Source: Candidatus Poribacteria bacterium
GTDB taxonomy: Bacteria > Poribacteria > WGA-4E > WGA-3G
NCBI GenBank assembly: GCA_026706025.1
Contig: JAPOZO010000002.1
Coordinates: 1-64,000 of the forward strand
Length of the DNA: 64,000 nucleotides
Direction of reading: 5' to 3'
A program made the position numbers and the translations under genes. This document shows, one piece after another, positions 5,556 through 8,433 of this stretch. Position 1 is the first letter of the stretch. Every line of letters begins with the position of its first letter. Under the pieces are notes generated by a model. The model worked only from the letters and a program-made list of their open reading frames with translations. It did not search any database and was not told the origin of the DNA.

Positions 5556-5613
5556 GACATTTGAAGAAAAATAATATTATCATACTCCTATGGAGAAAAA
5601 CAGGGAAAAGATC

Positions 5614-6834
5614 ATGAAAAACTACACACTCATTCTTATACTCCTACTTGCCACCATCTCCTGCGCAAGTGCCGAAGATCAGGCAGATTACAGCGACGAC
5701 AAAATCCGTACTCTACTGCCCTTTGATGCGATTCCCGCGATTACTGAACCCCAATTCGTTTCTGCTGGTGCCGCAAAATTAGACCCGGATGCCCCCGTCA
5801 TCGGCGTAACCTTCAACGACGAAAGCCACGCTTACTCGCTCTATCTGCTCAACGGACACGAAATTGTCAACGATGTTGTGGGCGGATTGAACATCGCCAC
5901 GACGTGGTGACCGCTCTGCAAAACGGCTATCGTGTATAGTCGCGATCTTGACGGTAAGACGTATACCTTCGGTGTGAGTGGTAAATTGTGGCGGGACGCG
6001 CTATTGATGTACGACCATCAGACCCGTTCCCTCTGGTCGCATATCACTGGGGAAGCGATACAAGGGCCCCTTACCGGTAAGCGGTTGAAGATGCTCGCCT
6101 CCATGCCGCAGATTGCATGGAAAACATGGCAGCTAAACTATCCGAAGACCCAGGTGTTGTCTGTACCTACGGGAGGTGGCATGCGCGAGAGCAGAAGCCA
6201 AGATGCCTACGCAGACTACCATGCCAGCCGACGTGCCGGTGTCAGCGGCATGGAATATACCGATAATAGGTTACCCAATAAATCCCTCGTGATCGGTGTT
6301 CAACTGCAGACTAAAGATGGTGCTCCTGGGCGTGATGGTGCTGATGGACAGGACGGTGCCGACGGCGGACGTGGTGGAGATGGTGGAGACGGAGGTGCCG
6401 GTGGACGCGGTGGAGATGGTGGGGACGGTGGAGATGGTGGACAGGACGGCACTGCTGGACAAGATGGTGCTCCTGGACGGAGTGGTAATTTCGATCCCTA
6501 TAACACACAGTTTCGCGCGTACCCGTTGACACACTTTGCCGAAACTACCGTAATCAACGATATGGTTGGCGAGGTGCCATTGCTAATTTTCCACGATAAG
6601 GTATCGTTCGCAACGGCTGTTTTTAAGCGGAATGTCGCGAAAGATGTGCGAAACTTTCGTTCTCAAGATGGGCATTTTGTAGAGGATAACACCGGAACAC
6701 GCTGGAATCTGGTCACAGGTGAGGCAACATCAGGTAAAGATAAGGGAAAACGTTTAGAACGCGTTCCCGCCGTTAATATCTACTGGTTCGCGTGGGCACG
6801 GTATTATCCGCAAACAACAATTTACCGTCAGTAG
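5614..6834 (+). CDS. DUF3179 protein with collagen-like insertion and in-frame TGA (candidate selenoprotein)
   Basis: A secreted DUF3179 protein of 406 residues if TGA at 5908-5910 (codon 99) is read. Residues 1-20 form a signal peptide (ILILLLATISCASA, cleavage before Glu). DUF3179 shows two repeats: the first has AYSLYLLNGHEIVNDVVGG, then ATTW-TGA-PLCKTAIVY, then TFGVSGKLWRDALLMYD; the second has FRAYPLTHFAETTVINDMVG and ends in WFAWARYYPQTT. The family normally reads TYCPLC, so the TGA replaces the first Cys and gives a UxxC motif. Between the repeats is a 56-residue Gly-x-y tract. The start at 5614 is chosen for GGGAAAAG upstream; 5590 is possible. Function of DUF3179 is unknown. A nonsense mutation is the alternative. 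Confidence 0.7.
5924..5942 (+). promoter_or_regulatory. Candidate SECIS-like hairpin after TGA of the DUF3179 gene
   Basis: CGGCTATCGTGTATAGTCG folds into a 7-bp stem (one G-U pair) with loop CGUGU, 21-25 nt after the in-frame TGA. Distance, loop size and a G within the first two loop bases fit published descriptions of bacterial SECIS elements. It lies inside the coding frame, as expected for bacteria. Confidence 0.5.
6319..6486 (+). repeat. Collagen-like Gly-x-y coding repeat
   Basis: In-frame run of GGN-led triplets encoding 56 residues of Gly-x-y (GAPGRDGADGQDG, then many GGDGGDGG units, then GAPGRSG). It sits in a loop between the two DUF3179 repeats and is acidic and glycine-rich. Slippage-prone, so its length probably varies between strains. 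The repeat also creates long open frames on the other strand, which are artefacts. Confidence 0.85.
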
Positions 6835-7602: not shown

Positions 7603-8433
7603 TTATCCTCCATTCGGTAAAATAGGCTTCACTGCCGCTTTCACCTCTTTTGATAGCGATTCCAGTTCATATTGTGCATCCGAGATTTTATCGCGATGCT
7701 CGTCAAGTGGGTAACCACCCTTCCCAGTCTCATTGAAATAGGCACTCAATTGGTAGCGTTGAAAGATGTTCATCCGCGGATAATCCTCTGTCCATGGGCT
7801 TGCATCGTGGAGTAGATTTGTTGAAAAGATCACCACGTCACCAGCTGTCATCGGAAGCGTAATTGAGGTGGGCGGATCGTGCTGCACGGGCAAATTCTCT
7901 GGTGTCTGAAACAGCGATTTATGACTGCCGGGAACGAGGCAAAAACCTGTGCCGGGCGGAACGTCTACCAAAGCCACCCACGTCGCAATGTGGCTACAAT
8001 AGATATGTCCAGCAGCGGCTTGATAATCGTTGTGCGGATTGCGGAACCCCGGTGGAAATCTAAACCCACTATCATCACGGTGAAAATGTTGTGGCGCATC
8101 ATGCTTCGTCATCATCGTGAAATTACAGTGGAACAGGCGCGGGGCGTTCATTGTTAACCCCGCAACAACCCGCATAACCTCTGGATTCATCGCAAGGTCT
8201 TGAAAGAGATGGTGTCCATATTGGATATGTCCGATGTGTGTTTTACAAGGTTCTTGCCGTCCACGGTCAAGCGGTGGTGGAATGTCGGCTTCATCAATTG
8301 TTAGCCAGTGCTGAAGGAGATCCAGCATCTCCGTAATCTCGTCCTTCGGGATAATATTTCTTAAAACGAGAAACCCATGTAAGTCAAAATACCACTTTTC
8401 TTCTTCCGTCAAAGTAGAATGGATGGTATACAT
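7603..8433 (-). CDS. Phytanoyl-CoA dioxygenase (PhyH) family protein
   Basis: A 276-residue PhyH-type Fe(II)/2-oxoglutarate dioxygenase. The N-terminus has EEKWYFDLHGFLVLRNII; the iron motif H-x-D is intact in QHFHRDDSGF (about 117), and the distal His is in NLLHDASPW with the Arg in PRMNIFQRY. GSHKSLF is the usual strand before it. Start ATG preceded by GAGAGGG. Cotranscribed with the SDR gene 2 nt downstream. Unlike the PhyH protein at 398-1207, this copy keeps the complete metal triad. Substrate not predictable. Confidence 0.9.
   Translation of the reverse strand: MYTIHSTLTEEEKWYFDLHGFLVLRNIIPKDEITEMLDLLQHWLTIDEADIPPPLDRGRQEPCKTHIGHIQYGHHLFQDLAMNPEVMRVVAGLTMNAPRLFHCNFTMMTKHDAPQHFHRDDSGFRFPPGFRNPHNDYQAAAGHIYCSHIATWVALVDVPPGTGFCLVPGSHKSLFQTPENLPVQHDPPTSITLPMTAGDVVIFSTNLLHDASPWTEDYPRMNIFQRYQLSAYFNETGKGGYPLDEHRDKISDAQYELESLSKEVKAAVKPILPNGG

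Follow-up and report, generated by a model that had tools for sequence, protein, structure and literature searches.

A length-variable, collagen-like Gly-X-Y insert at a β-hairpin of a DUF3179 protein with candidate selenocysteine in Poribacteria

A Gly-X-Y tract of 56 residues interrupts the DUF3179 protein of a Candidatus Poribacteria bacterium at the turn of a β-hairpin. Its glycine pattern is that of collagen, yet a collagen rod is probably not what it folds into. The reading preferred here, held at a probability of about 0.42, is that of a folded-back, acidic surface loop of polyproline-II (PPII) type, which may be an adjustable appendage with a putative function. What is new is the occurrence of a Gly-triplet tract as a hairpin insert; the available parts of the published descriptions of the DUF3179 family mention no insert (PMC9312934, PMC13188914).

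The tract was found in a window of 64,000 nucleotides (the whole stretch of DNA analysed), in a gene with the following parts:

5590–6834, plus strand: DUF3179 gene with one in-frame TGA, 414 residues with the TGA read as selenocysteine (Sec) (ORF translation, Pfam)
5614–5673, plus strand: Sec-type signal peptide MKNYTLILILLLATISCASA, then EDQ (sequence; AxA-[ED] conserved in orthologs)
5743–6168, plus strand: first DUF3179 repeat, which holds the UPLC motif and whose equivalent hairpin, VTFNDESHAYS, is without insert (AlphaFold2 model, hhalign)
5908–5910, plus strand: in-frame TGA, candidate selenocysteine of UPLC (sequence, orthologs, SelB, PMC9312934, PMC13188914)

The frame is open except for the single TGA, and a start at its second ATG, at 5614, yields the N-terminus MKNYT..., which is conserved. 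Because most orthologs have a signal peptide that closes with AxA and is followed by an acidic residue (ED or AD in the ortholog alignment), the protein is predicted to be exported, in agreement with the earlier note, which had called it secreted; export in turn would probably leave the Gly-X-Y loop exposed. A domain search, which that note had proposed, matched PF11376 (DUF3179) in the Pfam scan of the protein with an E of 1.2e-75 and 255 bits against a gathering score of 27, the match being split around the tract into two stretches (break at profile position 195–197), each above the cut-off by itself; tract-less orthologs match the profile as one unbroken stretch, 2–292. According to hhalign (probability 98.2, E 2.8e-14) the protein consists of two homologous repeats, and the insert indeed lies in the second of them. 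This is the one DUF3179 gene of the 6.27 Mb genome. Two phytanoyl-CoA dioxygenase-like proteins are predicted nearby on the minus strand (398–1207 and 7603–8433), and scans of the window with Rfam and for tRNAs gave no matches.

The TGA is codon 107 and takes the first Cys position of a CPLC motif. A TGA at the same codon is kept in the full-length orthologs of the family, one TGA each, and the genome encodes SelB (L087, 352.8 bits at a cut-off of 242). Since DUF3179 with UxxC/T is already listed as a selenoprotein family in the available parts of two sources (PMC9312934, PMC13188914), Sec in this protein is not new, and its earlier proposal as a candidate gains support. The sequence beyond the TGA is also conserved, which argues for its translation. 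A stem-loop after the TGA (5908–5962, loop CGUGU), considered as a possible SECIS element, was not more stable than shuffled sequence (z 0.12), and Rfam had no match in the window.

The tract and its surroundings comprise the following features:

6286–6309, plus strand: β-strand SLVIGVQL preceding the tract (AlphaFold2 strand 205–212; same strand in a tract-less ortholog)
6319–6486, plus strand: Gly-X-Y tract of 56 residues (sequence, Tandem Repeats Finder, genome pattern search, alleles)
6436–6438, plus strand: extra Gly codon, a +1 register slip, just before the bar in GAPGRDGADGQDGADGGRGGDGGDGGAGGRGGDGGDGGDG|GQDGTAGQDGAPGRSG (allele alignment)
6505–6525, plus strand: β-strand TQFRAYP following the tract (AlphaFold2 strand 278–284; strand 218–224 in a tract-less ortholog)

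In-frame translation of 6319–6486 gives GAPGRDGADGQDGADGGRGGDGGDGGAGGRGGDGGDGGDG|GQDGTAGQDGAPGRSG, with Gly at every third residue in 18 triplets plus the one extra Gly (GAP GRD GAD GQD GAD GGR GGD GGD GGA GGR GGD GGD GGD G GQD GTA GQD GAP GRS G(N)). The original description of 56 Gly-x-y residues rich in Asp and Gly therefore holds, with one slip of register; when the following Asn is counted, 28 of 57 residues are Gly and 11 are Asp. The extra Gly is shared with the two nearest tract-bearing alleles, three alleles having the slip in all. Tandem Repeats Finder resolves the DNA of the tract into repeat units of 9, 18 and 36 bases. It is the sole tract of at least nine triplets found by pattern search in the 6.27 Mb genome, and it is not a product of chance, because nine GGN codons at 9-base spacing occur nowhere else in that genome. 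An antisense ORF at 6271–6534 was rejected as a shadow of the repeat. A PDB sequence search with the protein returned low-complexity or chance matches only.

The tract occupies the β-turn that joins strand VIGVQL to strand RAYPL where the second repeat begins, a site that corresponds to the loop between a GV strand and AYPLT named in the earlier note; tract-less orthologs have there a turn of 5–10 residues, e.g. QTKDGNTQF. In the AlphaFold2 model of a tract-less ortholog, strand 205–212 is followed by a five-residue connection and strand 218–224, at a pLDDT of about 85–91. The model of the tract-bearing protein keeps both strands (205–212 and 278–284) in a body mostly at pLDDT about 80–95, with the tract at about 30. 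Secondary structure and connection length in these models suggest that the flanking strands pair. The flanks LVIGVQ and RAYP are conserved whether or not an allele has the tract (ortholog alignment), which indicates that the surrounding fold is kept. The low pLDDT of the tract hints at disorder, as in the disordered monomer that the earlier note had set against its own proposal, and settles neither order nor the monomeric state.

Directly after the tract, structure searches with the predicted model point to a further feature:

6499–6786, plus strand: second DUF3179 repeat as a Rieske-like domain, mature residues 276–371, without cluster ligands (structure searches with the predicted model)

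Compared with whole Rieske ferredoxins, the second repeat scored a VIA Z of 9.5 over 92 of 103 residues at 15% identity, and the best 50 rows of the VIA search were all Rieske-fold proteins. Foldseek gave E values of 0.01–0.04 only, so the likeness is one of fold only, on a predicted model. A sequence profile search found no Rieske entry, and the second repeat has no Cys in the ortholog alignment and hence no CxH or CxxH cluster ligands. Judged from the models, DUF3179 looks like two Rieske-like repeats, the second without iron-sulfur ligands, and the UPLC of the first repeat may lie near the expected place of the first ligand loop.

Every relative found with the DUF3179 protein bears the name Candidatus Poribacteria or uncultured Poribacteria bacterium. 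In a set of 58 family genomes, the tract is present in three of the 35 orthologs of the same genus (G000, G003, G006) and in 12 of the 17 of the sister genus; among the relatives it is limited to two genera, and in close orthologs from other families of the order the flanking parts abut without it. Some loci of the two collections used represent the same genome (L002/L031, L003/L055). A comparison of insert lengths, likewise proposed earlier, revealed that the tract is often absent in related species and measures roughly 20–75 residues, or about nine to 25 triplets, among alleles; the distance from GVQ[VL] to RAYP is typically 9 residues without the tract (5–10 overall) and, with it, increases in steps: 32, 38, 44, 54, 63, 69, 81 or 87. 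Alleles of relatives reach 20 unbroken triplets, and the register is unbroken over 9–20 triplets in all alleles except the three with the slip and the short allele L066, which has lost one Gly. On the tree of the flanks, presence of the tract changed at least four times, and a single gain, with all tract-bearers in one clade, is rejected (p-AU 0.016), a result to which gene-tree noise or recombination may have contributed. The motif GADGQDGAD was found in 14 of 56 family genomes, each time in this DUF3179 gene; as it occurs in no other gene of the 56, the tract does not belong to a module that several genes have in common, and a mobile module was rejected.

When alleles of equal length are compared, none of the 31 Gly columns contains an amino-acid change and nine contain a silent one, as against 20 of 62 X/Y columns with an amino-acid change (Fisher p = 1e-4), a p-value that is generous because the nine alleles, in three equal-length groups, share ancestry and the repeats may be homogenised. 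Residues are replaced at X/Y codons but at no Gly codon, and from these codon patterns the Gly register is read as being under selection. Such conservation is what packing of PPII chains, in which only Gly fits, would demand, and would be unlike that of a neutral loop.

According to the preferred reading, the tract would be a length-variable loop, in extended PPII-type conformation, at the tip of the β-hairpin that opens the second repeat of an exported DUF3179 selenoprotein. With both ends at one turn, such a loop would have to double back. Two or more of its segments, from a single chain or from adjacent molecules, may then lie against each other as in glycine-rich PPII bundles, unlike the chains of a straight parallel collagen rod. 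With Asp at most Y positions, the loop would present an acidic surface and might serve a redox protein of the periplasm or cell surface as an adjustable appendage for contact or spacing. The redox centre, UPLC in the first repeat, is independent of the loop, as most orthologs are without it. Against a PPII bundle, the short alleles (27 residues) are small for self-packing, a disulfide that could hold such a bundle is absent, segments rich in Asp would need bound cations to overcome their mutual repulsion, and the tract is modelled at the low pLDDT given above. Homogenisation by slippage could moreover mimic part of the Gly conservation, and the Gly lost from L066 also speaks against this reading.

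The main rival, unlikely on present evidence yet the closest in standing, is a neutral or nearly neutral expansion, in which slippage of GGN-rich DNA at an insert-tolerant site has produced a disordered, flexible loop. It would account for the tandem DNA units, the low pLDDT, the patchy presence with its repeated changes and rejected monophyly, and the lack of the tract in most orthologs of the same genus. It does not sit well with Gly codons that keep their residue while their X/Y neighbours change, nor with a register that is unbroken over so many triplets in all but the four exceptional alleles.

The earlier note had proposed a trimer, taken here as a parallel collagen triple helix built from the tracts of three DUF3179 molecules, which would make the exported protein trimeric. 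The conserved Gly at every third residue would fit this arrangement, as would the strain-variable triplet number, which is also a trait of prokaryotic collagens (PMC8968730), and the Pro-containing collagen-like proteins encoded by other Poribacteria. The composition, however, is against it: in the 177 triplets of 14 alleles, X is Ala in 53, Gly in 39, Gln in 34, Arg in 15, Glu in 3, Lys in 3 and Pro in none, and Y is Asp in 98, Ala in 21 and Pro in 20, Gly-Gly-Asp being the commonest kind of triplet in long alleles, whereas Pro is the commonest X residue of bacterial collagens (PMC8968730) and the poribacterial collagen-like proteins have Pro, Glu or Ala at X. The geometry is equally unfavourable. 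A triple helix rises 2.86 Å per residue, and one of 57 residues is calculated to be a rod about 16 nm long; because the tract begins and ends at one turn, where both its ends are pinned, the hairpin would have to open before a straight parallel trimer could form, and yet its two strands are conserved whether or not a tract is present. The +1 slip in three alleles adds to these objections, and SclA/SclB matches were weak (18 bits at a cut-off of 325). PF01391 (Collagen) matched neither in the genome nor in the Pfam scan of the protein at E 1; the genome search, which missed even the present tract, is uninformative, as low-complexity handling may remove such a tract. The trimer is thus unsupported, and a triple helix is considered improbable.

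The separate collagen-like proteins of other Poribacteria are L090, L091 and L092 (genomes G049, G046 and G009); in one frame of L092, a lipoprotein-like start is followed by a short GPQGPRGPQ tract, and the frame also holds a tract of 23 triplets rich in Gly and Asn. No relevant paper on Poribacteria with collagen-like proteins or selenoproteins was found in the literature searched. The occurrence of Pro at Y alone (20 of 177), never at X, is the reverse of other bacterial collagens. Y is the position of hydroxylated Pro in animal collagen, and prolyl hydroxylation at Y was considered here and rejected, the sole 2OG-Fe(II) oxygenase at threshold (27.2 against 27 bits) being too weak.

Quite improbable, too, is the more ambitious proposal of an ordered Gly-triplet module, whether PPII bundle or short triple helix, which would sit in the hairpin of a Rieske-like selenoprotein, would have been repeatedly gained and lost in Poribacteria, and would assemble or anchor an exported Sec redox enzyme. 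A very low probability is given to a dumbbell in which, with the hairpin opened, the tract would form a rod linking the first repeat to the Rieske-like second one. Its head-rod-head layout is that of many bacterial collagens, and the second repeat could fold alone, given that the Rieske-like match begins right after the tract (mature residue 276–278); both hairpin strands are nevertheless equally conserved in tract-bearing and tract-less alleles, AlphaFold2 keeps them as strands in either case, and the composition, with no Pro at X and much Gly-Gly-Asp, is against a collagen rod. Calcium-binding RTX-like repeats (GGxGxDxUx), not collagen-like and described in the available part of one source as Gly/Asp-rich nonapeptides (PMC3034196), resemble the GGRGGDGGA-type nonapeptides rich in Gly and Asp, and were rejected since the eighth position has no hydrophobic residue, no RTX family matched even at an E of 1, and the GGxG pattern is entirely absent from the short alleles (GADGQDGAD).

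The close relatives provide a natural allele series of one protein, from no tract to about 25 triplets, in which a Gly register is kept without the usual bacterial collagen chemistry of Pro at X. The series offers a clean test of how a Gly-every-third sequence behaves when a straight rod is impossible. With the tract, this selenoprotein family gains a surface module, and the Rieske-like fold, if confirmed, provides a structural lead for the family.

Among known systems, the host protein is a member of the DUF3179 (PF11376) UxxC/T selenoproteins by its Pfam match and by the TGA in UPLC. The bacterial collagens Scl1/Scl2 and BclA, as well as the poribacterial L090–L092, likewise have uninterrupted Gly-X-Y triplets in strain-variable number and are exported. 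In bacterial collagens, however, the collagen region lies between N- and C-terminal domains and Pro is commonest at X, whereas here the tract is an insert in the hairpin turn of one domain, Gly-Gly-Asp rich and without Pro at X (PMC8968730). Rieske ferredoxins have Cys/His cluster ligands, unlike the second repeat. PPII bundles, such as the snow flea antifreeze protein, phage S16 gp38 and the glycine-rich region of ALK/LTK, which in ALK is embedded in another folded domain, also contain GGX/GXX repeats; the present tract differs in being Asp rich and free of Cys. Repeats of the GGX kind characterise glycine-rich PPII bundles, those of the GXX kind collagen, and the bundles listed have six or more helices, as compared with 9 to about 25 triplets here (PMC13243192). 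In such bundles, fold-back of the PPII helices solves the end-to-end problem, and of the known folds they come nearest to a way in which a sequence like this one could double back (PMC13243192).
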